Assembly (NCBI RefSeq): GCF_011386835.1
Contig: NC_088797.1
Coordinates: forward strand, 38,253,583-38,317,582
Length of the DNA stretch: 64,000 bases
Reading direction: 5' to 3'
DNA from: Chrysemys picta bellii
Taxonomy: Eukaryota > Chordata > Testudines > Emydidae
The notes beneath the pieces were generated by a model. That model saw nothing but the letters and a program-made list of their open reading frames with translations. It made no database searches and was not told where the DNA came from. A program made the position numbers and the translations under genes. This document shows, in pieces, positions 8,950 through 58,777 of this stretch (position 1 is the first letter of the stretch; the number at the start of each line of letters is the position of its first letter).

Positions 8950-9137
8950 GACAGGTTTCAGAGTAGCAGCCGTGTTAGTCTGTATCCGCAAAAAGAAGAA
9001 CAGGAGTACTTGTGGCACCTTAGAGACTAACAAATTTATTAGAGCATAAGCTTTCGTGGGCTGTAGTCCATGAAAGCTTATGCTCGAATACATTTGTTAG
9101 TCTCTAAGGTGCCACAAGTACTCCTGTTCTTCTCTTT
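8950..9137. mobile_element. foldback retroelement-like insertion with 12-bp TSD
   Basis: The insertion is flanked by a perfect 12-bp duplication CCACTGTACTAC (8938-8949, 9138-9149). It begins with a GTAGCAGCCGTGTTAGTCTG motif common in turtle repeats. Two long arms (about 8996-9058 and 9070-9132) are near-perfect reverse complements around a GGCTGTAGTCC centre. Each arm carries GAAAGCTTATGCTC outward from the centre (left arm on -, right arm on +). The arm sequence resembles the hammerhead-like repeats at 9450, 34375 and 58685. I infer a Penelope-like origin from the duplication, the inversion and the shared motif. Confidence 0.75.
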
Positions 9138-9449
9138 CCACTGTACTACTTAATCCCTATTTTGAGAGTTCAAATGGAACTTAAATAGTGCAGGGGCCTT
9201 GAGAGGTGTTTCTGCTCAAGGGTGAATTTCTGATTGGCTCAGAACCAGGACCTTCTGTGCTTTTACCAGTCGGAATACACTTTGTGAATGAAAATAAATA
9301 TATGGCAAGTTTCAGTCTCTCTGGTTATGCACTTCTAAAGTAAATAATTTGGTGCAATAGCATTGAAAATATTAAATATGATCTGCTCTTTGAAAATAAA
9401 TACCATGAAATCTACTTTCTATAAATACCTTGACATTCAGCTTGAAGAG

Positions 9450-9574
9450 GTAAGTATCAGAGGGGTAGCCGTGTTAGTCTGAATCTTGCATCTGAAGAAG
9501 TGAGGTTCTTACCCACAAAAGCTTATGCTCCCAATAATTCTGTTAGTCTTAAAGGTGCCACAGGACCCTCTGTT
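9450..9574 (+). mobile_element. short retroelement-like insertion, 11-bp TSD, decayed hammerhead-like core
   Basis: A perfect 11-bp duplication AGCTTGAAGAG (9439-9449, 9575-9585) flanks the element. It opens with GGGGTAGCCGTGTTAGTCTG and carries CTGAAGA at 9492-9498, a GTG-A-GGT/ACCCAC hairpin, then AAAA where related copies have GAAA, and a short AGC/GCT hairpin ending in C at 9530. The changed G would disable a hammerhead. Confidence 0.78.
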
Positions 9575-9917
9575 AGCTTGAAGAGAGAGGCCATTATCCA
9601 GACACAACATTTCCAATTACAGTACAGATGCTACAGAGGGAAAACACAAACATTAGAATATTTTCCCCTTTTTTCAATTTTATACATAGTGTAATCTACA
9701 ATGAAATAGTGCTATATATTGCTGCATTGCTGAAACAGGATACGGCTGGATTGTACTGTGTTGACTATCCCCTGCTGGCAGATGATTCCTGGAGGACCAT
9801 TACCAGCTGGCAGAGTTTAGAGCAACTCTTGCTTCTGCTGAGGTCAGGGTAGAACTGGCCAAAAAAATCAGGGAGCCCCTCTGGTGTGCTGAGTGGAAAC
9901 AGTGTAGAAAAGAATAG

Positions 9918-10097
9918 AATCATAGAGTATCAAGGTTGGAAGGGACCTCAGGAGGTCATCTAGTCCAACCCCCTACTCAAAGCAGGACCAATCCACAGAC
10001 AGATTTTTGTCCCAGATCCCTAAGTGGCCCCTTTAAGGATTGAACTCGCAGCCCTGGGTTTAGCAGGCCAATGCTCAAACCACTGAGCTATCCCTCC
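9918..10097 (-). mobile_element. Cry-type tRNA-derived SINE, antisense
   Basis: Read on the - strand it begins with a tRNA-like head: an A-box-like TAGCTCAGTGGTTTGAGCAT (complement of 10071-10090) and a B-box-like GAGTTCAATCC (complement around 10037-10047). It ends with a tail containing CTAGATGACCTCCTGAGGTC and GATTCTATGATTC-like sequence. This is the layout of the Cry SINEs of cryptodiran turtles and is the main basis for the host call. It is close to full length. Confidence 0.85.
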
Positions 10098-10499
10098 TTC
10101 CAAGAGGTCCCAGTGTATAAAGCAATATCCACTAAAACCAGTTTAATTGGCCAAGCAGGTTATCTTCTATGACTAATGACACCTGCAGTGCTACCAAGGG
10201 GGACACTTGTGATAATTTACCTTGATAACATTTTATGTTATGGAATATTTTTAATGCCAAATCACAGTGACAAGCATACAAATAGCAAGCTGCCCAGCAC
10301 TCAGTTTTAGCTATGCTAAATACAGCAATAATTTGAATTTTAGCTGTGCTTTGAGAAATTTCAAGCTAAGTCAAACTATATTTTTAGATTACCAACCATA
10401 CCAATGAACTTGGGTATAGTATCTTTCCCCTTCCCTCTATTGGACGTAATCAGAACTGCTTGCTTTGTGTCATATAGGCCCTATGCTGTTTATGTAAGG

Positions 10500-10611
10500 T
10501 ACTTACTTGGCTGCCCTATTACTACAGTATCTGAGTATCTCAGTCTTCACTGTAGTTATCCCCACAACACCCCTTTGGAGTAGGGAAGTGTTATTATCCC
10601 CATTTTACTGA
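10500..10611. repeat. MIR-like SINE, left half
   Basis: TATCCCCATTTTACTGAGGCACAG is the conserved MIR core. The element is cut by the hAT insertion at 10620 and resumes at 10943. Boundaries are approximate. Confidence 0.65.
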
Positions 10612-10619
10612 GGCACAGT

Positions 10620-10934
10620 CAGGACCGGCTCCAGGCACCAGCAAAGGAAGCAGGTGCCTGGGCGGCCAATAGAAAGGGGTGGCACTCCGTCTGTTATTGG
10701 GGTGGCATGTCCAGGTCTGCGGTGGCAATTTGGTGGCGAGTCCTTCAGTCCCTCTCTTAGTCTTCGGCGGCACTTCGGCGGCAACTCAATCACTCCGCTT
10801 CAGTCTTCGGCGGCAATTCAGCGGCGGGTCCTTCACTCCCTCTCTTCCTCTTCGGCGGCAGCTCAATCGGGTTTTTCTTTTTTCTCTCTTTTTTTCCGCC
10901 ACTTGGGGCAGCAAAAAAGCTGGAGTCAGCCCTG
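10620..10934. mobile_element. hAT MITE inserted into a MIR
   Basis: A 315-bp element with ends CAGGACCGGCTCC and GGAGTCAGCCCTG sits between perfect 8-bp copies of GGCACAGT (10612-10619, 10935-10942). That octamer is part of the conserved MIR sequence, so the insertion split an older SINE. The interior is a set of CTTCGGCGGCA-type repeats. Confidence 0.9.
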
Positions 10935-10942
10935 GGCACAGT

Positions 10943-11045
10943 GAGACTACATGACATGCCTAAGATCACACAGGAAGTCTGGGATCTGAATCCTGGTCTC
11001 CCAAATCCTAAACTAGTGCCCTAACTAGTGGGCAATCCTTCCTCT
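10943..11045. repeat. MIR-like SINE, right half
   Basis: Continues the MIR after the hAT insertion with sequence of the GATCACACAGGAAGTCTG and GAATCCTGGTCTCC type. Boundaries are approximate. Confidence 0.6.
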
Positions 11046-11546
11046 CCCTGGAAACACTGCTAACAGAGATTTAGTTTAATCAGCAAAGGCTTGTGCTTTC
11101 GGAGCAGGGAGATAAGAGTTTATGTAGTGGCTGTGAGGCACCAAATGGCCATAGCATGCAGTCTAGTGACCAGTGTGAAGTCCTACGTGTGTGTGGATTT
11201 GTTACATATTATACTGTTAGCAGTCAATGCAGTGCAGTTAGCTTTGATAGCAACATGTTTAGAAGTTCTATAGGAATACCAGTGTATGTTGGATTGGGAA
11301 GAGATTACTTTAATTTTTTTCACATGGACAAATACAGTTATCCATTATGTTTTTTCAGTACAACCTTCTCGGCTAATACACAGCATACTCCATGTTCTGT
11401 ACAATTTTAAACAGCGTTGAGATATGCATTCAGAATATTGTAAACAGGAATATGGCACAGCTCTGCCTTGTAAAGATTAGTCTTTTCTCAACCTAATTTG
11501 TTGATAATATTTGCTTCTTTAACACTGGATTTCTTGGTCCATCTTA
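11046..11546 (-). other. TSEN2: probable TSEN2 3'UTR and downstream DNA
   Basis: No coding sequence or clear transposon. On the - strand an ATTAAA hexamer (complement of 11309-11314) is a candidate poly(A) signal about 235 nt after the stop codon; no AATAAA was found closer. The UTR end is uncertain. Confidence 0.4.
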
Positions 11547-11606
11547 TTATAGTTCATCTTGTTCACTGCGCTCTCGGGAAGAGACCCAACGATTTACAAT
11601 CAGTTC
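11547..11606 (-). CDS. TSEN2: TSEN2 terminal coding exon (residues 458-476)
   Basis: 60 bp in phase 0 after a CTATTTCAG acceptor. It encodes [19 protein letters not shown] and a TAA stop (complement of 11547-11549), followed at once by a second TAA. The C terminus closely matches human TSEN2. Confidence 0.95.
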   Translation of the reverse strand, partial: ELIVNRWVSSRERSEQDEL

Positions 11607-14600
11607 CTGAAATAGAAACATGGACTATTACAAGAGCAAAAAATAAAAAGCTTCCCCCCCCTCCCTCCTGTCATGCCAGTCATAACTTGGTAGCAGCAAT
11701 TCTTGATGCCCCCAACCTACATTTAAAGATTAACTTTGGGACCAGCTACCTCTGTGCCAGGCCTGCCCTCCAATTAATTTCTACCAACTCTATGGTGCAA
11801 CTGAATCTAGGATGTTCAACATCACAGTCTTGTGCTTTCCAGAATTTGAAACATGCCAGAGAGAAAGCAAAAATTAAAGTCTGCTGCTATGCTAGGGAGC
11901 TAGAGTCTTCAACTGCCTCAAAGGATTGCTCAGCTAGCAAAGATGAAGAAATAATTCGGACCACAACTTACTTGAACTTTAATTCTTTTTAGACAGTCTG
12001 GTGATGACATTTCTTTCTCAGTCATATCACACGGTTTAATCAAATAGCATAACATAAGTTCCTGTTGACAAATACACAAATATTCCTTATGTGAGACAAA
12101 TGCACAAGCTTCAATTGATATTTGAAACAGGTTTTAAATTAGAATCCAGGTGTTTAGTTTGAACAACAGATCTCATCTCTGAGGCAAATTAAGAGGTATA
12201 TACTCTTGTATAATGCTTGTTAATGGGAACTAGATAGACATACTGAGGAGAGAACACACCCATTTGTGTATCTGCTTTGAGGCAGACATTACCACTCATG
12301 TGACACCTGGATACCCTGGTAACTGGCATAGTAGAATTATCTATATAGACAGGTCATATAGAACTGGTAACCTTTTAGAAGTTTGCACATCCAAAATACT
12401 TTCCTATTTGGGCAGGTGAGTGGAGGTGGAAGGAAGTTCGGAGTGCGGAGTTGGAAAGGAAGGTCACTCCAGGACTTCCCCATTCTGCACACCTTTATTT
12501 CCCCCAATAACTTTCAAAGAGCCTGCACAGATGTGACCCTTCCGCTCCAACCAAGGAGACCTGGAACCTATCAACATTGCTACAAATACTGGCCAGGAAA
12601 GGATGTATTCAAACACCACTAGCGTGCACTGCCCCCCAGCCTAAATATAAAGCAATCATGCTCAGAACCCAAATTCTGATCCAAGTCCAGTGTTGCTTTT
12701 CCACAAAAAAATCTCCAAGCTAAACTATTACATTTACCAGTTAAAACTATTTGTAGATGCAGAATCAGTATCTTATGTTGTTACCTTAGAAACATTCACT
12801 GTTGTTCTGTTCAAGCCAGACAAAGACATCCAGTTGAGCGGTCTGCACAGTGACCCTACAAAGTTGTCATTAACCAGTTCAGCAATGACTGAGTAACTGG
12901 AAAATAAACCCAAAGAATAGATTACAAAGAGAAAAATTATGGTCACTTAAAAATCCTGGAATTTAAAAACTTCTGCCTGAGAATATTTGGCTATTGTGAC
13001 TGTCATAGCCAAACAACAAACCTGTAGGCTGCAGACAAGCCATAAGACCTGCATCTGTTTCTACTAGTCAAAGAGGAAGTGGTGGATGCAATGTTTAATT
13101 TGTGCCAGGCCTTGCCAGGGCTGAGCCTGGTACCTCTAGGCTTGGCAGTTCACAGCACTGGCACCTCTGGGCTTGCCATGTCAGTTATGAAAGTAAAAAA
13201 ATTGCTTGAGCCTCGGCACCTAATTGCTTGAGTCCTGTTACTTCTTTCATTACAAATTAAGCACTGGATGGAGGAGGTAAATGGTGAATGCAGTGAATGA
13301 TGGTTCCTCACCCCACCATCCTGCTTCTCTTCTTTCAACAGTGTTCTCTTGAGAGTGTCCATCTTTCATTCACACCCCATAACTAATTAGGCATGCAAAT
13401 TGATTGGTAGAGGAATGGAGATCACTTATAATAAGTTATGGGCTTTTTTCCCTAAGTTATCCCCAAAATTACCTAAATCATTCATAATAAAAAAGATACA
13501 CTATTACAAAAATCAGATCATTTTTCTGACTCCAATCAGCACATACAACAGCTAGAGATGCCCAGGGAGGCATTCTGTAGTCTTCAATTATATTCTTAAA
13601 TATTTGTATATGAACTCACTCTCAAACTTCTTGTTTTGTGCTTCTAGTAAAATGACATGTTGATTCAAAATATTTGCTTATCATGCATGGTTAACCTTCC
13701 TGGTTAGAAAAATTTGTTTTGGGTGTAGAAAGTACAAAGCAGGAAAATCATACTTTTAATTAGGAGAAATATATCCCAGTAAAAAAGGGGGTGGGGGAAG
13801 AGAGAAAATTGTATTCATTCATTTGAAACAAAAATAGAAGTTAAATCACAGTAGTCAAATGCAGAGTAAGTGTTTTATATTCAGAATATAAAGTGAACGC
13901 CAAACCTTGCATGGTAAAAGGGGGGACCTTTTCGATATAGCACTGCAACAAAAAAATACTGTATTAGTCAGAGAATCATGAATTCCCAATTTTGGATCTC
14001 AGTATCAGAGATCAGAACCCTTATAAATAACTAACAATCATACCCATTACATAAACAAGCTATTGCAGAATCAGAGGAGAGAGGCTGAACCCTTTCAACC
14101 AGCTCCAGCTGATCCTATTTAATTGCATGGCACATGTCAAAAGCCAGTGCTGTATAAAGTGGATAGGAAACAAAATTCAGACCAGAAAGTAAACTACTGA
14201 AGAACGAGCTCAAATAAACTCATGTAGATGTCAGGCAACCAATACCAACATTTCACCTATTATAATGGTTATTTTAGTGGACGGTGAAGAAATTGCATTC
14301 AGGTACAACTTCTATACCATAAGGATTGTGTGTTAACTCCCAGTACGCACACGAAAACATTCCTTAAGAGTCTTATAGTACACCTCTACCCTGATATTAC
14401 GCGACCCAATCACGAATTTGGATAGAACGTGGTAAAGCAGTGCTCCGGGGCGGCGGGGCTGTGCGCTCCAGCGGATCAAAGCAAGTTTGATATAACGCAG
14501 TTTCACCTATAACGTGGTAAGGATTTTTTGGCTCCCAAGGACAGCGTTATATCGGGGTAGAGGTGTGGTTTCATCTGAATGAAAAGCAGCATTCTGATAT

Positions 14601-17600
14601 TTTATACAGACATGCTTTTCTTCATGGTTTGCCATCATTTAACAATTTTCTATTAGAAGATAAATTACACTATCACTCATTTCAAACTACAAAACTGTAA
14701 TCAAGAAATTATTACTTAACAATTCTTAAGCTATTTACTATGGAAGTATAGACACTACTGAATATGTCCATTTGGGAAGAAAGCATAACAAAACAAAAAT
14801 AAGTGATTTGAATTACAACTTCAGTATATGCTCCAATCCAACTCCCACTGTTGGTGGAAAGATTTCCATAGAATTCAACAGGAATTGGATCAGGCTGTGA
14901 GAACAGAGAAAGCTCACTACTCCAAACACTCATTAATTCCACTTGGGCTTCTCGGCAGAGTGGGTGGATTGGCTCATGAGGTGAATTCCAGTGCAGTTCC
15001 ACAGCTAATATCTAGCCTATAGGCCAAAGCTACAGGTCCTCCAAGTCACTTACAGCCTGTTTTGGTACCAATGAATCTGCACAGCGGCAGACCATAGCCT
15101 CTGCCTCCATTAATACCTTATCTGCTAGCCTATAGCCTAACCAGCGTGCAGAGTCATCTTCCAAACAGGAGCTGGGGAGATCTGCTCTGCTTGTACAGCC
15201 TCAATGTCAAGTTTAAGTGGTGCATTGGCTATTAAAGAGTTAGTTGCAAGCTATTCCATTTTTGAAAGGAAACTACTCACAGAGATCGGTTCCATACTTC
15301 AGTCCTACTTTGGGGACCCATCCCTTACTTCGGAAGAAGTGATACGCCATGTATGTAGTTCTAAAATTAGGTTGCACTTCACTAAAAACTTCCCATAGCT
15401 TCAAAATAGTTAAAGGTTCCTAAAAATCATAACCAAAAAGACATTAGTATTATTACACTAACCTGCTGCTCTTACTTACAGGGAAATACCCAGGAAATGT
15501 TACACATAAAACAGCGTCTTTAGTAGAATATTCTATTCAAGTATCAAACATTATAATCCCATTGCAAAAAGACTACACTTGAGACATTAGCACTATGGGA
15601 GTCCATTGTCTGCAACAGAAGTCTGCTTCAATAGGGGTTTACCAATCAATACCAAAAAAACACAACCTTTGAGCTAGCAGAATTCTGCTTGGTCGCATGT
15701 TGGTAGCTCAGGACTCAACAGCAAGAACCTTACACCGATGATATATGTAAAGAAAAATAAAAGCTATTGTTTGTTATGAAAGACGGTGGTTACAATTCAA
15801 ACTGCAAACTTTTTCACAAAAGGGAAGGACACTCCTATACATACTTCTTCCCACACACCTCTTTTCTCTTGTATTTCTCCCACCAACTCCACACACAAAC
15901 TTTCTTCCACAGAAGGTACCTGTTTATCTGTATTTTGTTGCTAAATAAAAAGCATTGCACAAAGTTTATGGACAATATTCTTATATCTACACAAATAATA
16001 GAAACACAACTAAAGAGAAAATTTCCAAATCCCTCTAGTTGGTAGTTGCTGCCTTTGAGCTTAGCAGCATGTGATTCTGTCATAGTAGTTGGAAGTTTGA
16101 GACAGTGATCTATATCCAAGTCAATAGTATTTTGCATCTTTCAGAGCAAAAGTTGCAGATAATTAAATGTAACATCTTACCTCGTTATAATAAATACTCA
16201 AACATCCTAGAGCATAGACCAAGAAAAATGCCTAAAAACGTAAAAAGAGTAAGTTAAAATATTCTGTCTGTATCACATGGAGACCTGTAGTTATAAGATT
16301 TACATGTTACAACACTCTAGAATTATCGCATAAGAGAAGTTTGAAAGCCACCAAAAGAGCTTACTCATGTAATGAGCCACTCTGAGATAAATGGAATTAT
16401 TCATATGCATAAAATCTGCAGGACTGGTCCCTTGAATGTCTTTCACTATGTCCATGTAATCTACAGATCATTAAAATTATTACTAAATTTACCAAAAACA
16501 GTGCAAACATTTTGGATTTTAAAAAAACAGATCATTCTTTAAGAAAGAGGTATTTATTGCATAGATTAGTGCTTTGTTCTGATGTTAGAAGAAAAAGAAG
16601 TTTCACAATATTTAACATACCTCCTCCAGACTGAGTTGCAAATATTCAAAAATCCTAAATGGATTTCTTCTGCATACTAATTTTTCCCTTTTGATTAACT
16701 AAAAGAAAAAAGTATAAAAATAAAATTATAAAGAAGCAACCAAAGAAAAAGGAAATACGTGTGTTGCATTCAAAATGACATTTTTCAAACATCTTAGATT
16801 CCACCTTAACTTTTCATTAAACATTAGTGATTTATTTACTATATAGATGAACATTTAAATCGACAACAATACTGAATTGTGAAAAGAACACACTGACTAT
16901 ATTTAGTAAAATAAAATAAGTTACCCATAAAAAAGACAACTCGCTTGGCTTACATTTGATTTATCATTTGCTGCTTCATCTTCATGACACAATTTGCTTT
17001 CTTCTTCCTGCACCAATACATACTCATAAGCATATTCTTTCCCTTTGGCCAAGTTATGAAATACTTGGTTGGTATAATCTTCGGCCTTGCAGCCACAGTG
17101 CACAATAAAATCGTCATGTTTTTGGCAATGTACTTTAACTATAGCTTTAGTGTCCAATGGATACAGTTCCTCAGAGCCATAGTTGGCTAGTGGATCATTG
17201 TAAGCTGAATCACCTTCCAAAGAAGCTTTCTTGCAGTCTACACTCATGTTATGACATTTAACATTTGGTGCTGCTGAATCTCCATTATTTATGGCAGAAT
17301 CTCTTGAAAGTTTCATTCCATCTTCTACGTTTTCCATTTCTGCAGCCATTCTGCAGCAAGAGTCATCATTTTGTGCAACTTCTCCTTCCCCTTTCATAAA
17401 AGGCAGATCAAATGGCTTAGTATAATTTTCAAGAATTTTGTTAACGGAGCAGTCATCAAGTCCTTGTTCTTGCATAAGGCTTTTAGCCCATTCTAGATGA
17501 CACTGGTACCTGGATAATGGAAAAACAAGAAGTGGAAGATTCTAGGGCAGAGTATTGTTCAACTAATATGTTAAAACTAGGGCTGTCAAGCGATTAAAAC

Positions 17601-20600
17601 AATCAATCACAATTAAGCGCATGATTAAAAAATTAATCACACTTAATCATGCTGTTAAACAATAATAGACTACAATTTAAATATTTGTGGATGTTTTCTA
17701 CATTTTCAAATATATTGATTTCAATTATAACACAGAATACCAAGTGTACTATGCTCACTTAATAAAATAAATATATGCACTGTAAAAAAATATAGTATTT
17801 TTCAATTCACCTCATACAAGTACTGTAGTGCAATCTCTTTATCATGAAAGTTGAACTTACAAATGTAGAATTACGTAAAAAAATAACTACATTCAAAAAT
17901 AAAACAATGTAAAACTTTAGAGCCTACAAGTCCCCTCAGTCCTACTTCTTGTTCAGTCAATCGCTCAGACAAATAATTTTGGTTACAATTTGCAGGAGAT
18001 AATGCTGCCTCCTTATTATTTATATCACCTGAAAGTGAGTACAGGCGTTCGCGTGGCACTTCTGTAGACAGTGTTGCAAGGTATTTTCGTGCCAGATATG
18101 CTAAACATTCGTATGCCCCTTCATGCGTCAGCCACCATTCCAGAGGACACGTTTCCATGCCGATAATGCTCATTAAAAAGATAATGTGTTAATTAAATTG
18201 GTGACTGAACTCCTGGGGGGAGAATTGTATGTCTCCTGTTCTGTTTTACCCGCATTCTGCCATATATTTCATGTTCTAGCAGTCTTGGATGATGACCCAG
18301 CACGTTTGTTTTAAGAACACTTTCACAGCAGATTTGACAAAATGCGAAGAAGGTACCAATGTGAGATTTCTAAAAATAGCTACAGCACTCGACCCAAGGT
18401 TTAAGAATCTGAAGTGCTGTTCAAAATCTGAGAGGGACGAGGTGTGGAGCATCCTTTCAGAAGTCTTAAAAGAGCAACATTCCAAACTACAGAACCCGAA
18501 TCACCAAAAAAGAAGATCAACCTTCTGCTGGTGGCATCTGACTCAGATGACGAAAATGAACATGTGTCAGTCCATTCTGCTTTGGATCATTATTGAACAG
18601 AACCCATCATCAGCATGGACGCATGTCCTCTGGAATGGTGGTTGAAGCATGAAGGGACATATGAATGTTTAGCATATCTGGCACGAAAATACCTTGCAAC
18701 GCCGGCAACAAAAGTGCCATGCGAATGCCTGTTCTCACTTTCAGGTGATATTGTAAATAATAAGGAGGCAGCAGTATCGCCTGTATACGTAAACAAACCA
18801 GAACAAGAAGTAGGACTGAGTGGACTTATAGGCTCTAAAGTTTTACATTGTTTTGTTTTTGAGTGCAGTTATGTAACAAAAAAAAAATAAAAAAAATCTA
18901 CATTTGTAAGTTACACTTTCACGATAAAGAGATCGCACTTCAGTATTTGTATAAGGTGAACTGAAAAATACTCTTTTGTTTATCATTTTACAGTGCAAAT
19001 ATTTGTAATAAAAATAATATAAAGTGAGCACTGTACACTTGGTATTCTGTGTTGTAACATAAATCAATATATTTGAAAATGTAGAAAAACATCCAAAATA
19101 TTTAATAAATTTCAATTGGTATTCTATTGTTTAACAGTGCGATTAATCATGATTTTTTTTAATCGCATGAGTTAACTGCGATTAATCGACAACTCTAATT
19201 ACAACCAACAATACAATATAGAAATAAATGTTAATGCTTCCATAATTTATTTTTAATTTAAAATATGTTTTATATATCAACTGAGGTATGTTTTTTAAAC
19301 TGATCCAACACATTAGTTAAAATGGAGAATAACCAATTTATAAGACTCTTTGGTATGCTATAATGCTGTGATAATGTAGAAAATAAACACAACTCAAGAT
19401 CACCATAACATTAAGCTTTCTATATATTTTAAAAAGAATTACATATTTACTTGTAGCTACATGCTGAGATCCCAAAGAGAATGTTATAGTGAGGATTGAG
19501 TGAGTAACACAGGGGTCGGCAACCTTTCAGAAGTGGTGTGCCGAGTCTTCATTTATTCACCCTAATTTAAGGTTTCGCGTGCCAGTAATATATTTTAATG
19601 TTTTTAGAAGGTCTCTTTCTATAAGTCTATAATATATAACTAAACTATTGTTGTATGTAAAGTAAATAAGGTTTTTAAAATTTTTAAGAAGCTTCATTTA
19701 AAATTAAATTAAAATGCACAGCACCCCAGACCGGTGGCCAGGACCCAGGCAGTGAGAGTGCCACTGAAAATCAGCTCTCGTGCCGCCTTCGGCACGCGTG
19801 ACATAGGTTGCCTATCCCTGGAGTAACAGATGGCACTTCTTAACAAGCAGCTGAATAACACAAACTTATCTAAACATGAAGCCTACAAAAAAAAAATTAG
19901 GCTGGACTAATTCATCTTTTAAATCTTAGTTAAATTCTGAATGTATTTAAAGGAAAAGACTAAACAGTGTTTCAGTCCAAGTATAAGTGGGTTTAAATCC
20001 ACTGGAGGCTAATGAAACAGGCTGACTTTGGCACGAGATTTAGGGACAAATCCTCAGCTGATGTAAAGCAGTGGAGGTCCACTTACTTTAATGGAGCCAA
20101 GCTGATTTACATCAACAGAGGATTTGGAACAAATGAAGTCTGAAGAGAAGACACTTCCTAATAGCAGCTATATGAAAGCTAAGCACAATATAACGCTTAA
20201 AGGCCCAATTCTGCAGTACTCACTTAACCAAATCTTAAAGGAAGTATTGCCTGTGAAAGGACTTCAGGATCAGGCCCTATATGATTACCAACTACTGCAA
20301 TGAAGACTTTTTATAAACAGTGTTTACATTCTTCATATGTTATACTAGTAGCTAAAAGTAGAATTTAAGGATGCTGATTTAAACAGCGCACAATAGAACA
20401 CTGAAGACCAATGCCAAAATATGTCCCGAACTGGTTCTCAGTTACAAACAGACCTTGCAGAATTTCAGTTTCAAATCAATACATCAGTATCTCAGGGTGC
20501 TGTGCCTTGGATATATTTAGGCCCAACTTATTCAGAAATGCCCTTGGAAAGGTCATCCTAAAGTAAACTAAGTGATACTATTGTAAATAGTTTATGGTTG

Positions 20601-32982: not shown

Positions 32983-33164
32983 CAGTGTTGTGGTAGCCAT
33001 CTTGGTCCCAGGATATTAGCAAGGCAGGGTGGGTGAGGTAATATCTTTTATTGGACCAACTTCAGGTCTGAAGAAGAGCTCTGTGTAAGCTTGAAAGCAT
33101 GTCTCTCTTACCACCAGAAGTTGGTTCAATAAATGATATAACCTCACCCATCTTGTCTTAGTAG
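32983..33164 (+). mobile_element. foldback element with hammerhead-like core, family H2
   Basis: Begins ACAGTGTTGTGGTAGCC and contains arms GGTGAGGTAATATC/GATATAACCTCACC plus TTGGACCAACTTC/GAAGTTGGTTCAA in inverted order. The centre reads CTGAAGA (33068-33074), an imperfect GAGCT/AGCTT hairpin, GAAA (33093-33096), then a short hairpin region. The plan matches the hammerhead-like repeats at 9450, 34375 and 58685, but the sequence family differs. No clean target duplication was found. Confidence 0.65.
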
Positions 33165-34362: not shown

Positions 34363-34374
34363 GTCATTAAATAG

Positions 34375-34528
34375 CGACAGAGGGTCCTGTGGCACCTTTA
34401 AGACTAACAGAAGTATTGGGAGCATAAGCTTTCGTGGGTAAGAACCTCACTTCTTCAGACTTGCATCTGTCAGGACCCTCTGTCGCTTTTTACAGATTCA
34501 GACTAACACGGCTACCCCTCTGATACCT
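34375..34528 (-). mobile_element. retroelement-like insertion, 12-bp TSD, intact hammerhead-like core
   Basis: A perfect 12-bp duplication GTCATTAAATAG (34363-34374, 34529-34540) flanks it. On the - strand it reads CTGAAGA (complement of 34452-34458), a GTG-A-GGT/ACCCAC hairpin, GAAA (complement of 34430-34433), then AGC-TTAT-GCT-C. GCGACAGAGGGTCCTG near one end recurs inverted at about 34471-34486, so the copy is partly inverted. It ends with the GGCTACCCCTCTGATA phrase shared with 9450. Confidence 0.8.
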
Positions 34529-35302
34529 GTCATTAAATAGTTATTGTCCAACCCCCCCCAAGTATCTGATCCCCCATAATTTCCCTCAACTATGAACATT
34601 GAAAAAAATCAGTAAAAACTAAAAAAAAATAGTTAAAATGAACATGAATATTAGCTGTTGAAATTATAAAAAAATCAAATTCTGCCACATCTAATTATAC
34701 ATATGTGTATAGTGCATAAAGCTTGCTACCCACACCACCCTTTTACTGACAATAGCAAGCAACAACAACAAAAATTCCACAGCCCTAACTGTATAATTTA
34801 CTGATCTAAAATAGATACAATCATTTTTTTCAATATCTAACATATTTTGTATAAATGATTTCTATTCAGTTTTATTCTGAAACATTCACAGCTTGGATTG
34901 CTTATTAGATGAAGATCACCATGTCACAGATGGAAAAACTACATCTGTGAATCAATGTACTCCATTCATTGGTTCACACACACCAAGTCCTGCAAATCTG
35001 CTCCCAAATCTGCAAAATGTTTCGAGGTGCTGGTTTATGCATCTGGAGCTTAGCTGAAAGTTTTGTAAAAAATCACATGGAATTACGTAGCTTTCTGATC
35101 AATATGCCTCTGAGGAGGCTCATGTATATGTTGTTTAGAGCGGAAAATTCTGGAACACTTACACTTGCTAAATTTCCTCCAGATATACTTGTTTCAGACA
35201 AGTATATTAGAATAACTGGAACAGTGGGATAAAACTTCCTGTCAAATCATGCCTATTTTGGATAGCATGGACAGATTTACATGTAATCTAATGTCTGTCT
35301 CT

Positions 35303-40840: not shown

Positions 40841-40844
40841 GTTT

Positions 40845-41812: not shown

Positions 41813-44800
41813 TTACACTATGTTATTACAAAGCCCATTATTCTTCCCTCCCAACACACGCAGGCACTGAAATGATCAAATATTATGTATGCTGAGGTGG
41901 GACCAGGATTTTAGTGAGTTTGAACTCACTCTTAAGGAGCTAATTCTTATTCTAGCACCAGCTCGAGTAGCCACTGCCAGGCTGTGTGTTTGAGATATAT
42001 ACTAGGTCCATGGGAAGGAAACCTTCACCCCCAGGCTGTTGACATGATCTTTAGCCACTATTGCATTACTGCATGCAAAGTGGGCTAGCCATTGGATTGC
42101 AGTCACAGATCCAGCAACCCCAGCCCTGCTCCTCTGCTACCCCACCCTTAAATGAATGCAGGCTTTAATTTTGATAGACAGAATAACCCCTTAAGCATAT
42201 GTAATGGAAGCTACTATAAAGTATAAAACAGACTTAGACTGACATTCACAAACCAGGTGCAACATTATTACTGTTACATACACGCATGTCATGTTTTTTA
42301 AGATTAATTTCAGGTTCAGGAGGAATCCAGAGTTAATCATTGTAATTTAGACTCCTGCCAAAATATCCATGTAAATAATCTCCCCAGTGTTTATTCTGCA
42401 TATCAGCAATTCAAGGAAAGCTCAACTGTTTAGTCTTTGTCACCTTGCAACAATGTTAAATAATTTAAATGTACATACCCTGCCAGCTAAGATATAAAAT
42501 AACTAGCTACTTGAACAACAGGACACCTAAAGATGCTGAATGTGATTTGCAGGAAGTTTTTGACGGGTATAATTTATCTTTCATTTGTACAAGGCTTAGC
42601 ATTTTCAGCATTGGCTGTCTCATGAAAGACAGGAGGTAACAGATGTAGACATATTTCATAAGTAAAACAACAGACTTCTGTATCTTATCACTCTATAGCC
42701 AAAACAAAAAGGAGGTGACTAAGTACTAGCTAGCTGTCTTTAAAGCTACATTATTGCTATCTGCCTAATGCCATTGAACAAAAGGTTACAATGTCATTTA
42801 TGCATTACTGTGATATACAGTATTTTGGTGATGCAACAATCAGTCCATATTCTGCTCCCGGTTACACCCATGCAAGTCAGTGGGATCAGTAACCCATTAT
42901 TTAACTGCAATCAGCTCAGGGCATTGGCGACTTTTTGCAGTAGTCAATCCATACTGCCAACAGTACACAACAAGTTTTCCAGGGGGAAGGAAGCATAGCT
43001 TCACTAATTGGAAAGAACACTGAAGTAAGCAGAATATAATTACACACGTTGAAATTGGCCAAGGCACTAGGTTAATACCCCTATTCTTATGCAAAATGCC
43101 AGGACTTCTTCCAGTGAACAACAGTGGCCAGGGTTAGCAGCACAGTTCCCCCTAACACTGATTCATTACTCATAGAAGAGGGACGTGGAAAAGACCTGTT
43201 AGAGCATCTGGTCTATGCAGGATTGTTCCCTACAATAAATTTTCTAGTGTTTTGTTTCATCTCACTTTAAAAGTCCCAAGAAATGGAATTTCCCTTGGGA
43301 TACTGTTTCTTAGTCATGGTCCTTGGTCACTTAGTTTTCCTTAATATTTAACCTACACTTTCCTTTTCTTAATTTGAATGCATTATTCCAAGTTATATCT
43401 CCAAAACGTAACATCGCCATCCTATAAATGGTGTGGTTCATTCAGCTGAGTCATCAGGAAATGACATCTTTGTCTGATCCATCTGATATTCATATTTCAC
43501 TCCCCATAATCTGGAATGCAATAAGTGGAACACACAGGGCAAATGTATCCCAAACAGGTATCCCCATGTTTGGAGTTACCCTCACTCATCTGCTAACCAC
43601 TGAGCATAGTCTGGTTTGTCTGGCCCTGAGGTGAGGATAAACTTCTGTTGACATTTTCAAATTCAGCCCTATTGCAGTACTGCAGGGTCATGTTGCCTCA
43701 ACATTGAGTTTCAAAACATAGCAAAACCGACTTGGCCCTTGGATGATATTTTATTTTGTCAGAGTCTAAGAGGGCAGCAGCATTCTTAGCAGCAAGATGG
43801 TCTGAAACATCTGTCTCCAGCTTTCCCCTGACCTCAGGGAAATAATCTGTAAAATCTGCATATTTTAATTGCCACTGGGGTTTGTGGGCTGAGGGTGGGT
43901 GGGAATGTGGACAGGCTTCATATTTTTGCAGCTAAATTAATCCTGCATGATCTGAGTGAGTGTGTGTGTAAGTTAAATGGCAGCCTAATTATTGTGGGAA
44001 TAATGTAACTGTAATACAAAGATGTTAAAGTATTTGGGGGCTTCTTTTCCTGTCATTAACAACCTACATATCTTGGAAATCAAGGGTTAAAGTAATGCAA
44101 CAGCACTGGCACAAACCTTCTACTTGGCCTGGGGGAGCATTGCATCCCCAGAGTATCCCCTCCTAGGTAAGAGTCACATGGAAGAGGACTCTGAAGATGA
44201 AGCTTCTTGAGCCCGGTTGTGGAGATTCTCAGGCAAATCTGGGGCTTCCAGCCATCCTGCCCATAGACAGAGCTGTAGAAGCTGATGGGAGAAGCATTCC
44301 AACCAGGAGTAGCCAGTCCACCTCCCTTTCTCTACATATGGATTGTCCCTCAATACAGCTTCCCCTCTCCTCCTAAGGAGATAGGAAAAAAGAGACCCAC
44401 CCGCTCCATTTTCTTCTCCCTCTCTTTGTAGAGAGCTATAAATGCACAATGCATATTTTAATGCAAAATCTGTTTTTGAAACATCTTAGTCTTCTAAAAT
44501 GACATTGGCTATTTCAAAGTTTTCCAGGGACGTGCCCCTCACCCCTGCACCTCCCATTTTTATTTGCTTTTGCATCAGTACAGATTCTCCATCTTAGTTA
44601 AGACTAAATGATGGCACTGACAGAAATGAGAGAGGGGAGCACAAGGAATGTTCCCCTACAAGACACACGCACACACAAACTTTTGTTTGTCTGGGAATGG
44701 GGTTGCATGGAGACAAACTTCTATTGGGTACGTCTCTTCTTTTGGCCTCTTCCTCTTTCTCTTACTGCATACTGATTCCGCAAGATGATGTCACACTGCA

Positions 44801-51912: not shown

Positions 51913-51914
51913 TA

Positions 51915-52970
51915 CTGCTCTAATGCGTGCATTCCTCTTTCTAAGATCTCTTAAATATTCATGGATAAGCAAGCTGCCTTTTTACTTTACAATCATTCAG
52001 TGCTATTCTTTCTGCAATTGTTAAACGTTCAGTATTCATTTTAACCCTTAATTCCTGAAATCTAAAACACAACATTCTCTCTAATATCTATTACTTTTGT
52101 AGGAGGCAAACAATGTTATAAAAACAATCTGTGGCTTTTGAGGACTTTTTATAATTTCCTCCAGCTTTTTCAGAAACTGGAGAACATTGCGTCCTCACTC
52201 CCCAGTAATTCTTGGGAACAGCAGACTCTGTATGCACTAGAGACTGGTTAGTGTCAGAGCCTATTGGAGTGGGAGAGACAGACTTATACAATTGTCTGGT
52301 TTCAAAATGTCTTTCAAAGGAGCACTGCAGCCTCTGACGTATTCCCTGGATTTGGAATATGCATTGCCAGCGAGTGTTGAAATAGGCTTGCCTGAGATGT
52401 CACCAGCAGAGGAGTACAACAGTATTAGTACAAGGGTCCAGATCCTAGCCCTGCTTTACTGTCGGCCTGGTATGCAAATGGTGGGGAAAGAGGGTTTTCC
52501 TGAAGACAGGAGTCCTGGAGCTGAATAAAGCAACCCTTTCCCCCTACCCTCAATTTACTGAGACCTCAGAGATTAGTGACATCATCCCAAAGAGTATGAT
52601 CGCCATGTGTGATGGTCATATGGGGCAGGATCACAAATATGGCAGCTGCACAGATGCCCTACGGCCACCTCAGGGATCTCTCTCAAAGTCCACAGTTGTA
52701 TCCATGGCCACGTAGTTACTGAGAGCTCAGTGCTGTTGGTGCTGCTAGGATCAGGATTTGGCCCAAGATCAGGTAATACCCCTCAGAGGGGTTCTCTGAT
52801 CTTTATTGAAGAAAGACTTTTAGGGAAACAGTTGGATCACTAACCCAATAAAAAACATACTTTGCTACTTTCTGAATCAGGGAAACTCAGTCACCTTGCA
52901 GACACAATTGGGGAAGCAAGTTCAAACAGACATCCTGGAGACATATCTGCAAACTCCATTGATATATATA
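51915..52970. other. intergenic, nothing recognised
   Basis: No exon, RNA gene or nameable repeat. Confidence 0.5.
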
Positions 52971-53641
52971 CAGCTCTACCCCGATATAACGCGGTTGTGG
53001 GGAGCCAAAAATCCCTACCGCGTTATAGATGAAATGCTGTTATATCGGGGTAGGGACAGCAGGGCTCCAGCGGTAATTTAAAGAGCCCGGGGCTCCGGCC
53101 GCAGGGAGCCCCAGGTTCTTTAAATCGCTGGTGAGTCCTGCTGCCGCAGCCTCGGGGTAGCAGCGGCAGGGCTCCGGCGGTGATTGAAAGAGCTCCGGGC
53201 TCCAGCCGCTGCGGGGAGCCCGGGGCCCTTTAAATGCTGGTCAAGCCCCGCTGCTGCAGCCCCGGGGTAGTGGCGGCAGGGCTCCAGCGGTGATTTAAAG
53301 GGCCCGGGGCTCCCCGCAGCAGCCGGAGCCCCAGACCTTTAAAGCTCTGCCTGAGCCCTGCTGCCGCAGCCCCGGGTTAGTGGCGGCAGGGTTCCGGCGG
53401 TGATTTAAACAGCTCCGGGCTCCTGCCGCTGCGGGGAGCCTGGGATCTTTAAATTGCCGGCTGAGCCCCGCTGCTGCAGTCCCAGGGTAGCGGCGGCAGG
53501 GCTCCAGCGGTGATTTAAAGGGTCCGGGGCTCCCCACAGCAGCCGGAGCCCCAGGCCCTTTAAAGCACCGCCGGAGCCCCGCTGCTGCCGTGTTATATGA
53601 GACCCCGTGTTATATCGGGTCACGTTGTAGCGGGGTAGAGG
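52971..53641. mobile_element. Tigger-like MITE family T1 copy 3, expanded by an internal tandem array
   Basis: Ends CAGCTCTACCCCGATATAAC and GTTGTAGCGGGGTAGAGG lie between TA dinucleotides (52969-52970, 53642-53643). The family-like left part runs to about 53048 and the right part from about 53588. Between them is a GC-rich array that makes this copy 671 bp instead of about 185. Confidence 0.85.
53059..53590. repeat. five-unit GC-rich tandem array, about 110 bp per unit
   Basis: Units start at GCAGGGCTCC-type boundaries 53059, 53166, 53276, 53386 and 53496 (spacing 107, 110, 110, 110). Units 3 and 5 carry a central CCCCGCAGCAGCCGGAGCCCC-type block, whereas 2 and 4 carry a GCCGCTGCGGGGAGCC-type block in the opposite sense, so the higher-order period is about 220 bp. 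Confidence 0.88.
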
Positions 53642-54519
53642 TAAATATGGATCATATGCATACATGTAACCTGTATGCTGCGCTAAAGGTATAAACCCAT
53701 TCAGTAAGGGCCATAATCTCTCCTCAGCACACATAAGCAACTCCCATTAATGGCTGGCAAGGAGGAAAAGATACACCTGAATTGTTGGAGAATGCCTCCT
53801 TTGAATGTGTGCCGTACTCTGACATAACTGCTCAAGATTCCACTGTAAAGCTTTGTCTGTTCAGCTTTTTTAGTCAAAAACAGTGAAAGTCACCTTGGTG
53901 CGCAGGTTCAGTGCAAGGGCTATGCACCCCGACAAACAGGGCTTAAATTCAGCCGGAGCTATCCAGAGTGGAGCCCCCCTCCCTGGAGTTTTCATAGCAT
54001 GTTGGGGAAGAGTGTCGTGGGCCGCTGGGAAATACTCTATGAGAGTTTAAGCCCTGCCATTAACCCTCAAAATAGGGCTTAGGTGGGACGTAACCAGTAC
54101 AATGCCCTGTAAGCACTACTATAAAAATATGATTATTGAAAGACATTACCCATTTAATTGCTGCATTCTGCTTTAGTCACTTTGCTTCATTAGACTGCAC
54201 TGTTGCAGCAAAGCAAAGTGCTAGTATTCAGTAGAAAAGTAGCTGCTATATAAGACAGTACCGAAGGTGTGTTTTGCCCCCTGTACTTAGTACATTAGGC
54301 AGCACTGAAGTGGTCAGAGGACACATCTGTAGATTTTTGTTGTTGTTGTTAACCACAGATTTTTGCCATATAGTAGAATTTCATTTTTTAAAATAACAGG
54401 CTGTATTGAAGTTCCATTGATCTGATGGCCAAAATAAATGATTCGCAGGGTGCTAATGCTGTGGCATGGTCTTAGGGTTAGAACAGAGGACTGGAAGACA
54501 GAAGAAGTGGATTTTTACT

Positions 54520-54655
54520 ATGCCACTGACTGCGTGATTTTATGCAGGTTTCTTAATCTCTCTCGGGCTCGGTTTCCCTATCTGTAAAATGGTTATGAAT
54601 GATACCGACTGTTGAAAGTGTGTTGAGGTCCTTGCATGAAAGGTGCTATATACAT
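54520..54655. repeat. MIR SINE fragment
   Basis: CACTGACTGCGTGATTTTATGC, CTCGGTTTCCCTATCTGTAAAATGG and AAGGTGCTATATA follow MIR order. Confidence 0.7.
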
Positions 54656-57654
54656 GCAGAGCATTGCTACCTCATAAAACAAACCTTCATTATTGACTGG
54701 ATCATCAATGTATTTATAAAGCCATGGTTCCAAGAAGGGAGAGACTGGAGAGAGGCCAGTGCCTGTTTCCTTTTATAAAAGGGCAATTAAAAGTTTGAGA
54801 TTTTATCATTGAAACCACATTTGAAAGAGATATTAATATGTCTCATAAAACATGTTGGAGTCTTAATCTGTTGGGCAATAAGTCATGTAAAATTACAGCA
54901 GCGGTACCAAAATGCAGGTGGGCAGTTTCTAAGAAAATCAGAAGATACCAATTATACAACAGACACTGTGGTCAATCTTGCAGTTCCTGTTCAGCTCAAG
55001 GGAGGCCTTCTTTATAAAATGACTGGCATTAGACTCACGGTGTGTAAGAAAACCTTTAAAATTCAGATCTTAAAGTGAAATTTGCTTCTTCTGTACTTCA
55101 AGCAGAATGTACCCAGCGTAGCATGATTTAAGAATTACCGAGCATGCCAAGAATACATTAGATTACTCTTGGCAGTGGGAATTGCATTTGTGTAATAACA
55201 AGCACTAAAACCCTCTTAAGAAACTCTGTCTGATCTGTAACTTGGGACTTATTCATTTTGTTGTTGTTGTAATTTTTCTGAAAAAAAAAAAAGTGTGTGC
55301 AAGATTCTTTTCCAAAAATCTGTAGGGTACTTAGGAATTTCTTTTTTGTACAGATTGGGTAATAACTCTGTTCTCTACTTATTTATTTAAGGCTTGTTTA
55401 GAACATAGAGGAGAATATTTGTTCAAAGTGTCTCCTAGACACACTGTCGTCACAATGCTATCTCAGACACCGATTGCACAAGATTTTCAAAAACTAAAGA
55501 TAGGCACCTAAATATAGATTTAGGAGCCTATCTACATCAAGTCAGTGGGAGCTGCTGGATGCTCAGACCTTCTGAAAATCAGCCCTCCTGTTTAGTTTTC
55601 TAAATATGGACTTATGAGCCTAAATGTAGTTACCCGCCTTTGAAAAGCTTGGCCATCTGCTCACACTCTTGTGAGAGAAACTTTTATAGGGGCTAGGAAG
55701 TCCCATGAAGTTCCCATTTAGTTTCTTCCAAATCAGAGCTTTTGGGGGAAGGTTTGCCCCCTCATAGAATTTGCATGGCCTTTTGTCCCTTATCCCACAA
55801 ATGTCCTGTGATCCCCACTGACCTCAGGATAGCACCAGAGGGCGGGAACATCTAGGTCTGCTCTGCTCCCTTCCCCTGCCACAAAGGCTTCTGGGGGAAG
55901 GAAATGCTATTATAACTTGTATCCTCAGCTTTTTGGCTGCCCACCAAATTACCATTACTATGAGCAAGACAGAAACACCCAGCCAGGGTGCAGGCAGGAT
56001 GCAGGAACTGGGGGACAATGAAAAAGAAACTGGGATGCAGTAGCAGGAACCAGCTGTCCTCCAGTTTGCACCAGGACCTGGCACCTTATTTAGGTACTCC
56101 TTTCTGGCAGCAGATAATTACAGTTGATATGGGGACACCAGACAGACAAACACATCCCTTACAACAAAAACAATCTAGCCACTGCTCTAGGGGAGCTGCC
56201 TCTCGTCTCCTTTACTTTGAGCTATACCCTGTAACACAGCTTCAGCTTCCTATATGTGGAGGTTGAGTGGCTGCTCCCTGAGGGGGTAAGAAGTCTGTCA
56301 GTCAGTGAAACCTGGGCAGGTTTCAGCCCAACCCAGTGGTGGAAGAGTATTCACGTTGGTCTAATTATGGAACTCGTGTGTTGGGGCTGACTACTTTGCA
56401 GTGGCTCTGATAGCGCTGTGTTTGAATTTTGCACAAATATTAGTTTTAAAAAATATCTTCTGATTTATAAAGAAAATTGCCACATACTTGTCGTGATGAT
56501 AATTATTATTGCAAAGGGTCTGGGCTGTTTGGAGCCAGTTGCACAAAATAACTTACTCTTAAGGCTAAATCCTGCTCATTTTGGGTACTACTCACTGTGA
56601 CTTAGGATAGCAGAATGTGGCTGTCTGCGAGTAGTCCCACTGCCTGCTGTGAGGCCTTTTACATGAGTAAAAGGAGTAGGATTTTGGCCACTAGCATAGT
56701 TTTGGCATTGTTACACATGAATGCAAGAGACTCAAACATGAAAATCAAATAATGCTTCTGCTAAAACAGGAGTCTAGATTTTCACTTCAAACTTATTCCA
56801 CCTTATGCACAAGAAGACTAACCTGGGAACTGTTTCTTTAAAAAAAATACTTAGGGGTGAGTGGTATTGGTCAAGAAAATGAGACTCACTCCATTGGTCA
56901 TAGTACTCCTGATTCAGTCACCCACATTCTGAGCAGTGCCTTATTCCACATGGAGTCCTCATTGATTTCAGTGGGCTTACTCATGGAGAAAAGCACTTCT
57001 CTCAACATGGGGCAGCAGAACTGAGCACAGAGTGAGTAGTGCTGGGAAAGCTTTCACACACACAGCTCTTCCAAGTAATACTGACCTGCACTACCCTACT
57101 GTTCAATTACTGGATTTTTCCTGACAGCCAGAAGTGTTAACGTGTATTAAACTGCATAGTGGGTTTTGCAATGAGGAAACATCTACAGAATATTGAGGGT
57201 CCAGTTCTGATTTTTTATTTAATGCCACTTCAGGGACTTTTTTCTCTAAATAAGGACTTCAAAGCTAGACCCAAAACTGGGGAACTCTTAACTCATTTCA
57301 CATACAACACACAAAAATGTCAACCTTAAAACTGCAGGTTTGATCCAAAGTGTTGAATTTTTCCCCTGGACTTCAGGAGTTTTTGGATCAGGCCCTATAT
57401 GACTAAGGTAACTAAACTTCACTCTTAGTACTGATGCTGAAATATTCAACCTATCTGTGTATACAATGAGTGTGTGTGTGAAGAGTGTATAAATCTTTTA
57501 TTCAGGTAAACCTGCCTATTTAAGGTACTTATATTGCCCCATTATCATTGTAACTGAGTGACTCAGTTTCTTTAATGGATTTATCCACACAAACTTCCTG
57601 TGAGATAAGTCATAAGTACTAGTCAATGATGAAGGTTTGTTAAAGTAGCATAAA

Positions 57655-57840
57655 ATAGCAACGCTTTGCATTTATATAGCACCTTTCATGCAAGGTAAAT
57701 GTTTTACAAAATTTGGTGTTCATTTATACCCATTTAGCAGATGGGAACTGAGCCGCAGAGAGACAAAGTGACTTGCCCAAAGTCACAGAGGAAGTCTGTG
57801 GCAGAGCAGGGACTTAAACTCAGGTCTCCTGACCCCCTAG
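57655..57840. repeat. MIR-like SINE, opposite orientation
   Basis: TTTATATAGCACCTTTCATGC, CCATTTAGCAGATGGGAACTGAG, CAAAGTGACTTGCCCAAAGTCAC and AAACTCAGGTCTCCTGAC are consecutive MIR-core phrases. It abuts the GC-rich element at 57861. Confidence 0.7.
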
Positions 57841-57860
57841 CCCATGGACGGTGAGTGAAC

Positions 57861-58272
57861 CAGTGGCGTGGGGAGGCTCGTCCCTGGCCTGGCCCTTCCA
57901 CCTGAGCCCCTTTCCCTCCTCCTCCCCTGCCAAAGCCCAGAGCACATACCTCCCCATGACTGCCAGCCCCCTCTTGCCCCAGGCCTCCCGTGTGGCCCCC
58001 AATCCCGGAGCGCTGGGCGGCATGGCCCCAGCATCAGGGGCCCCACAGCAGCAGCGCAAGCCACGTCAAGTCCCGGCCACAGGCCGGCCGCCCTAGCCCC
58101 AGCCCCACCCAGCAGGTTTCCCAGAAGAGGAGGCAGCCTGTCTGGGCTGGGGTGACTAGCGGCAAGCAGGATGGGGTCTTGGGATGGAACATGGGCAGAG
58201 CCACGTGGGGCTGTTTGGGGAGGCACAGCCTTCCGCAGCCTATGCTATGCGCCGCCCATGCCCTAGCCACTG
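57861..58272. mobile_element. probable GC-rich hAT element
   Basis: Ends CAGTGGCGTGGGG and GCCCTAGCCACTG share CAGTGGC termini, but no matching 8-bp duplication is visible. The interior is CpG- and C-rich, giving several overlapping spurious frames. Confidence 0.5.
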
Positions 58273-58684
58273 GATAACCTTTCCTCTCTTTAGACAATTA
58301 GGCATGAGCTGTTACCATTATTCAGCTGTTTCCGCTCAGAACAGCAATAAATGTGTGGAAGGTGGGTGCCCTGGAAATCTTATTTAAAGGTTCTTCACCT
58401 CTTTATCTATGTGTTTTGTTTACTTTTAAGGAAAGATTTAAAAGCTCTTCCCCATCCTCTGAACCAGGGGAGCTGCTTTTGGGTAGGGTGACTCAAGCGC
58501 TGATTCTGGGACACTGTTCTTCTTTCCTATCCCTTTTGAAGTCCTGTTAATTCCTGCCTTCCTGCATTTGATCTATTCTCAAGCTCTTTTTTCTGTGTCT
58601 CTGAAAATATATGGGCTGCAGGGGAGAGAATGTTTTCCAATTTCCTGTGCAAGGAAAAATGAACAGCAAATCTAACTTTGTCTG

Positions 58685-58777
58685 TAGAACTTGCATCTGA
58701 AGAAGTGAGGTTCTTACCCACGAAAACTTATGCTCCCAATACTTCTGTTAGTCTTAAAGGTGCCACAGGACCTTCTG
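58685..58777 (+). mobile_element. retroelement-like insertion, 12-bp TSD, intact hammerhead-like core
   Basis: A perfect 12-bp duplication TAACTTTGTCTG (58673-58684, 58778-58789) flanks a 93-bp insert. The insert has CTGAAGA (58697-58703), a GTG-A-GGT/ACCCAC hairpin, GAAA (58722-58725), an AAC/GCT short stem with one mismatch and C at 58735. It lacks the GTAGCCGTGTTAGTCTG end, so it is truncated there. Confidence 0.8.

Follow-up and report, generated by a model that had tools for sequence, protein, structure and literature searches.

What kind of element leaves several short repeats with a hammerhead ribozyme-like core in one region of a turtle genome, and how were these repeats inserted? The region is a 64,000-nucleotide stretch of Chrysemys picta bellii DNA (NCBI RefSeq assembly GCF_011386835.1, contig NC_088797.1, positions 38,253,583 to 38,317,582), here called the window and numbered from its first letter. 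An original prediction, made from the letters alone, had described such a core in four repeats and proposed that they are either non-autonomous Penelope derivatives or retrozyme-like elements. The window holds five short insertions, which belong to three related families, A, B, and C. We consider it highly probable that all five derive from Penelope-like elements (PLEs) of the endonuclease-bearing Penelope/Poseidon type and represent short insertions lacking the 5' part, probably produced by two-sided, two-site priming.

Linkage to Penelope-like coding sequence

Elsewhere in the same genome, the repeats stand next to PLE coding sequence. GIY-YIG gave 87 matches among the 150 that were scored of 10,494 candidates, and six of these 87 loci were fetched (4 kb each), five picked because their open frames are long and one because of its score. 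In all six, a unit of hammerhead plus tail lies downstream of the open frame and on the same strand, its core 69 to 319 nt past the end of the frame. One unit (L051) belongs to family A, as in the window, and has an intact core; four (L050, L052, L053, and L054) belong to family C, and the sixth (L049) is a decayed C-like copy. Pfam models RVT_1 and GIY-YIG were both found in each of the two open reading frames (ORFs) scanned, NCBIfam gave only weak reverse transcriptase (RT) and endonuclease matches below its cut-off, and PDB sequences gave none. The unit follows RT and GIY-YIG coding sequence, which bears out the prediction of non-autonomous Penelope derivatives. Direct pseudo-long terminal repeats (pLTRs) are represented in the six 4-kb loci by the downstream copy only. 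A short interspersed nuclear element (SINE) or a DNA-transposon foldback was rejected as a candidate because the linkage to RT and GIY-YIG and the start sites of reverse transcription described below explain the ends of the insertions.

Anatomy of the window insertions

Exact target-site duplications (TSDs) of 11 or 12 bp flank four of the five insertions; in a chance control, a repeat of at least 11 bp was found at 0 of 3,000 random position pairs. Four of the five are two-armed. Their left arm is the reverse complement of the tail, ending in AACACGGCTACCCCTCTGATACC in family A and in GGCTACCACAACAC in family B, whereas their right arm has no tail and stops 73 to 76 nt (A) or 89 nt (B) past the start of stem II of the hammerhead. 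The end of the left arm lies 119 nt after stem II in family A (the copy at 34375) and 122 nt in family B, where the limits lack TSD support.

The sequences reported earlier were found where they had been placed, and three pairs of limits proved exact and TSD-flanked; all three belong to family A. The two-armed insertion at 9450-9574 (+ strand; TSD AGCTTGAAGAG at 9439-9449 and 9575-9585, 11 bp) joins the reverse complement of the tail to a right arm that runs from the hammerhead to the second RT start site. The two-armed insertion at 34375-34528 (- strand; TSD GTCATTAAATAG, given for the + strand, at 34363-34374 and 34529-34540, 12 bp) has the same right arm and a tail on its left arm. The third, at 58685-58777 (+ strand; TSD TAACTTTGTCTG at 58673-58684 and 58778-58789, 12 bp), is single-armed: it begins 12 nt 5' of the hammerhead core and ends at the second RT start site, without a tail. 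Family B is represented by an old two-armed insertion at 32983-33164 (+ strand), with limits taken from the original prediction and a flanking repeat of at best 7 bp; its left arm has the tail, with ACAACAC near the tail end, and its right arm has none. The fifth insertion, a family C two-armed foldback at 8950-9137 with no single strand assigned (TSD CCACTGTACTAC at 8938-8949 and 9138-9149, 12 bp), was absent from the earlier list of repeats. Its left arm, in sense on the - strand, leads back from the tail end to stem II, and its right arm (+) runs from stem II to the second RT start site without a tail; the CUGANGA motif is missing from both arms.

A coding element in L053 has a broken 5' end (2506-2556, + strand) and, at that point, part of the same repeat end in inverted orientation, with the unit on the other strand at 547-714. 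This is the two-armed plan in a coding copy.

The tail hairpin and two probable start sites of reverse transcription

These ends can be compared with those of Poseidon_Ac, a Penelope/Poseidon-clade element of the green anole, for which we draw on the available part of the published study (PMC11167929). Stem II marks the beginning of its ORF, and reverse transcription starts 111 to 118 nt into that ORF; a second start lies 30 to 40 nt away, the optional tail is the stretch between the two start sites, and both target strands are cut and extended.

In the turtle repeats, the tail contains a hairpin. Families A and C share a 9-bp version, TGTTAGTCT with AGACTAACA, which in the family C insertion of the window spans 8973-9032 (- strand; arms 9032-9024 and 8981-8973, 42-nt loop). 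Family B has its own at the matching place (33002-33059, - strand), with 7 bp formed by TTGGTCC (33059-33053) and GGACCAA (33008-33002); relative to A and C, both partners differ in two of the pairs, and two outer pairs are lost. The hairpin is present in the predicted fold of all three families, and the longest inverted repeat was matched by 3 of 500 shuffles in family C and by 20 of 500 in family B. Poseidon_Ac has CAUGGCC/GGCCAUG at a matching distance: counted from stem II, the hairpin arms lie at 42-50 and 91-99 in family A, at 46-52 and 97-103 in family B, and at 48-54 and 92-98 in Poseidon_Ac. The motif ACAACAC follows the hairpin by 10 nt both in family B (114-120) and in Poseidon_Ac (109-115). 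The tail hairpin had not been mentioned in the original prediction.

One tail per two-armed copy

A 22-base pattern with one free position occurs at 44,251 exact places in the turtle genome, and its reversed control at 0; the pattern fits families C and CAAT and matches neither family A (CTCCCAATA) nor an older family, D. The fetched sample comprised 8 loci, 20 loci around further listed places (some of them picked for having two pattern places near each other), and, at round coordinates, 20 stretches of 10 kb. Together with the window, it contains 17 pairs of arms within 400 nt of each other, 12 from targeted loci, 4 from round-coordinate stretches, and 1 from the window, and all 17 are head-to-head. 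Exactly one tail is present in 16 of these two-armed copies (on the right arm in 10 and on the left in 6), one has no tail, and none has two; a first, too strict tail pattern, which had given 13 with one tail and 4 with none, was loosened once to reach these counts. If arms were independently tailed half of the time, at least 16 one-tailed copies among 17 would arise with a chance of about 1.4e-4. Flanking repeats of at least 9 bp (9 to 13 bp) accompany 12 of the 17 copies, ten of them with 12 to 13 bp, compared with 1 of 200 when flanks were swapped.

Two separate start sites of reverse transcription lead one to expect a single tail per two-armed copy, as seen in this sample. The source would be one stretch of RNA in which the hammerhead is followed, within 120 nt, by the tail hairpin and two RT start sites, one in the hairpin loop and the other just past the hairpin. 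In the order of steps that we infer, the protein of the element would cut both target strands about 11 to 13 bp apart, and reverse transcription would be primed from each side of the target, with the tail site serving one side and the loop site the other. Both cDNAs would extend to or towards the 5' end of the RNA and be joined head to head, giving a foldback that has a single tail and an 11- to 13-bp target duplication. As a genomic footprint, the one-tail rule agrees with the two-strand, two-site initiation seen in vitro.

The hammerhead register

The template given for Poseidon_Ac is CCU-CUGAGGA-U-GCCUGC..GUGGGC-GAA-ACGU-C-AGG (PMC11167929, available part). We read it as having an extra base before stem II, a loopless palindromic stem III, C17, and a stem I made of CCU and AGG. 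Family A can be written in the same register as GCAU-CUGAAGA-A-GUG(A)GGU..ACCCAC-GAA-AGCU-U-AUGC. At the sequence level, the motif fits a minimal type I hammerhead with stem I GCAU/AUGC and U as H17; stem III would then be a loopless AGCU palindrome followed by that U, and AUGC would form the 3' side of stem I. Because such a stem III has no loop, it would pair only between two RNA units.

This register alters much of the earlier account. The pattern of CTGAAGA, an A, stem II, and GAAA is present, as described, at 33068 (+), 34458 (-), and 58697 (+). The hairpin AGC-UUAU-GCU proposed as stem III is not supported, the anole sequence and the family alignment fitting the loopless AGCU palindrome; it fails at 58697 (an A.C mismatch) and has only 2 bp at 33068. 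It was tested as a pattern and then abandoned, since the anole register explains both stem I and the extra base. Two features that had counted as weaknesses cease to be such: a single extra nucleotide follows CUGANGA in the published anole hammerhead too, and the stem I that seemed missing exists at the family level as GCAU/AUGC.

In the window, the unit at 9488-9528 (+) consists of stem I GCAT (9488-9491), CTGAAGA (9492-9498), the extra A, stem II, AGCT, T, and ATGC, and its core G12 is changed to A. The core at 34422-34458 (-) reads CTGAAGA-A-GUG(A)GGU UCUU ACCCAC-GAAAGCUU-AUGC and is the only one of the four window cores to keep every core base; its own 5' stem I strand sits at the foldback joint, and its stem I has only 2 bp. 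The cores at 33068 and 58697 had also been called intact, which does not hold in the corrected register. The former (family B, 33068-33099, +; CTGAAGA-A-GAGCT..AGCTT-GAAA) has AGCA as its palindrome segment, with A instead of U at position 16.1, and the latter (unit 58693-58733, +), which has stem I GCAT/ATGC, has its palindrome segment mutated to AACT.

How unusual these motifs are depends on the pattern. Bare CTGANGA..GAAA occurs 8 times in the window versus 4.76 expected, which is not significant (at least 8 in 10 of 100 shuffles). A core with stem II and the stem III hairpin was found three times versus 0.245 per shuffle, a modest excess reached in 1 of 200 shuffles, and one of these three cores (46190) is unrelated to the repeats. 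Requiring a core, the palindrome, and a stem II of at least 4 bp leaves one match in the window (34458) and one in 200 shuffled windows; with a stem I of at least 3 bp added, there was none in the window and none in the 200 shuffled windows.

Families and the loss of a core base

Family C (CTCTAATA) accounts for 81 of 100 among the pattern places listed first. At least one arm was found in 11 of the 20 round-coordinate stretches, and the 15 arms there divide into 7 of family D, 4 of A, 2 of C, and 2 unassigned; family C is thus abundant but not the commonest in these stretches. Divergence among copies over 62 nt is 0.060 (C), 0.064 (A), 0.072 (CAAT), and 0.211 (D). Since the majority of the C arms were retrieved through an exact match inside these 62 nt, the values cannot date C relative to A. 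The repeat patterns had no match in collections of viral contigs or genome contigs, and family A DNA had none in phages.

The families differ in the core itself. The motif CCGAAGA, not CUGANGA, is found in 18 of 21 family C arms and in all five C-type coding loci fetched, whereas CTGAAGA is found in all 8 family A arms and CTGATGA or CTGACGA in 4 of 5 CAAT arms. Among the 20 unselected 10-kb stretches, CUGANGA is present in 6 of the 12 arms with a readable core, and 1 of the 15 arms has the CCGAAGA core. U4 is part of the conserved hammerhead core, so that cleavage should be impaired in family C, judging from its sequence. One tentative explanation, to which we give less than even weight, is that in this family, where U4 is C and stems I and II are kept, cleavage has become dispensable and the fold is retained for some other job at the 5' end of the RNA. 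Equally tentatively, this job might be protein binding, the start of reverse transcription, or the pairing of two RNAs through AGCU, which might let both target strands be primed on two templates at once. A 2020 review, as far as its available part goes, called the role of the hammerhead in Penelope elements unknown (PMC7761336), and the available part of the anole study reports that cleavage was unnecessary for insertion in vitro (PMC11167929). Families with and without the core base, linked to coding sequence and present in one genome at tens of thousands of exact places, make the need for the ribozyme testable, both in sequence data and by assay.

The 5' end of the RNA

Upstream references were used for families A and C, and 42 arms (families A, C, and CAAT) were compared with them, leaving aside five D arms that had no reference; 24 of the 42 stopped matching 5 to 11 nt before the core. 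Of the rest, 13 continue for at least 37 nt, into the TATA region, 4 stop at 0 to 4 nt, and 1 stops at 16 nt. On visual inspection, two variants, L019 (entered in these counts at 9) and the - arm of L023 (entered at 16), extend to a TATA-like stretch as well, and in two-armed copies the partner arm may contribute part of the upstream match. Single-armed copies in unrelated flanking DNA (L009, L012, and the one at 58685) stop in that place as well. In family C, about 35 nt separate the start of TATATATA from the stop point. The RNA may begin where these 24 arms stop; its 5' end probably lies 5 to 11 nt before the hammerhead core and, in family C, about 35 nt after the TATATATA motif. A search of the window for an upstream promoter string gave one match, at chance level.

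Alternative readings

Foldbacks might also form when a cDNA primes its own second strand on a palindrome, either the ATGCAT joint or the stem II hairpin. This was proposed for rotifer Penelope joints (PMC3846280, available part), and palindromes are indeed present at some of the turtle joints. However, plain self-priming would extend the copy through the whole of the first arm and so place a tail on both arms, a state seen in 0 of 17 copies when 16 have one tail; single-armed copies, for example L009, L012, and the one at 58685, moreover start at the same place as two-armed ones. We therefore regard self-priming as rather unlikely and favor priming from both target strands at two sites. The retrozyme-like alternative, in which small non-coding RNAs are excised by two hammerheads, circularized, and reverse transcribed by a partner element, would suit short non-coding units with minimal type I hammerheads, and such motifs are common to retrozymes and PLEs (PMC7761336, available part). 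Yet neither the fetched loci nor the window contain same-strand unit pairs within 400 nt, the same unit is located in RT and GIY-YIG elements, and 0 of the 4 TSD-bounded window insertions end at the cleavage site, their ends being RT start sites. The test of ends is limited to the window insertions, since the motif by which the fetched arms were found spans the cleavage site. A retrozyme is not needed, and we hold it to be very improbable.

The resemblance to a hammerhead might, finally, be coincidental, with the conserved segment of the RNA serving only for RT binding or as a start region. U4 is missing from one abundant family, Rfam misses the tested copies, and single stretches fold no better than shuffles, all of which would agree with coincidence. 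Against it stand the plan that the anole element shares with families A, B, and C, in each case with different stem sequences, the rarity in shuffled windows of a core with palindrome and stem II, and the family stem I in other copies. In the anole element, according to the available part of the study, either C3G or G8C abolished protein-assisted cleavage (PMC11167929). Coincidence seems improbable to us.

The insertion of PLE-derived units by two-sided, two-site priming must also be set against several observations that count against it. The six 4-kb coding loci contain neither a sense unit upstream of the frame, in frames that look 5'-incomplete, nor a full-length element with an upstream hammerhead. 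Rfam detects no hammerhead in the window at the gathering score and, at E<=10, none at four of the five insertions or at the intact copy L014. Folds of five single stretches have total energies no better than those of shuffles. A dimer could fold into a nested double hammerhead at -18.3 kcal/mol in family A (for a unit assembled from two window copies) and at -17.7 in Poseidon_Ac, but the best dimer folds, at -24.4 and -33.0, respectively, beat it. Family B rests on one decayed copy, and the exact pattern found no other in 255 kb of fetched loci. The palindromic joint ATGCAT could give the cluster of 5' breakpoints without a transcription start.

The pairing of stems I and II across copies counts in favor. 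A readable core is present in 47 arms, for which a fixed downstream motif was required. The share of paired cells is 87.9% for stem I, 91.4% for stem II, and 90% for the two combined (36 arms, 35 distinct), compared with 23 to 48% in slid-register controls; because the search motif fixes the 3' strand of stem I at three of its four positions, this stem could show one-sided changes only. The AGCT palindrome, present in 46 of the 47 arms, is likewise largely fixed by that motif. True covariation is thin: one of ten pairs covaries (U-A, C-G, and U-G; 12 two-sided cells, 1 of 500 shuffles, its score also 1 of 500), and neither the count of pairs changed on both sides (1) nor that of further pair types (6) exceeds the shuffles.

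Other features of the window

The window also contains an RT fragment (RVT_1) at 61117-61377 (+; E 6.6e-9), which we take to be CR1-like; two hAT-transposase dimerization fragments (PF05699) in opposite orientation, at 17874-18188 (-) and 18597-18887 (+); and a likely host exon with DUF4796_C at 6545-6805 (+; E 6.9e-20).

Comparison with known elements

Minimal PLE hammerheads that may act as dimers were reportedly described by Cervera and De la Pena in 2014 and by Luense et al. in 2017. By that description alone, the turtle motifs resemble them in being minimal type I hammerheads without a real helix III, located in PLE repeats of high copy number. Our literature search found no paper joining hammerhead, turtle, retrotransposon, and Penelope; these two papers lay outside the search and may cover the present families, and the U4-to-C family may already be noted in one of them. 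A text search for the repeat strings returned only papers unrelated by title.

The Penelope families of the rotifer Adineta vaga, as presented in the available text of PMC3846280, share several traits with the turtle elements: inverted pLTRs that are mostly head-to-head, a 31-bp tail optionally on one of them, palindromes at the joints, the TATATATA promoter motif, and short TSDs of 8 to 10 bp. A tail on one of the inverted repeats had thus already been described in rotifers. In contrast, the window insertions are shorter than 200 bp, and the turtle TSDs are mostly 11 to 13 bp. The word hammerhead does not occur in the text of the rotifer paper.

The likeness to Poseidon_Ac, within the available part of the anole study (PMC11167929), includes a hammerhead at the junction of pLTR and ORF, one extra nucleotide before stem II, a loopless palindromic stem III, and a short stem I, together with the hairpin and RT start sites at matching distances, a tail between the two starts, and a protein with RT and GIY-YIG domains. 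The anole hammerhead is reported to cleave only when its protein is added. The two elements differ in their stem sequences, in stem I (3 bp in Poseidon_Ac and 4 in the turtle), in H17 (C versus U), and in the core motif, which is CUGAGGA in Poseidon_Ac and CCGAAGA in turtle family C. In Poseidon_Ac, the start codon is formed by A9, the extra U, and a G, whereas the 47 turtle arms read AAG there, at 58703-58705 in the window and at the same place elsewhere.

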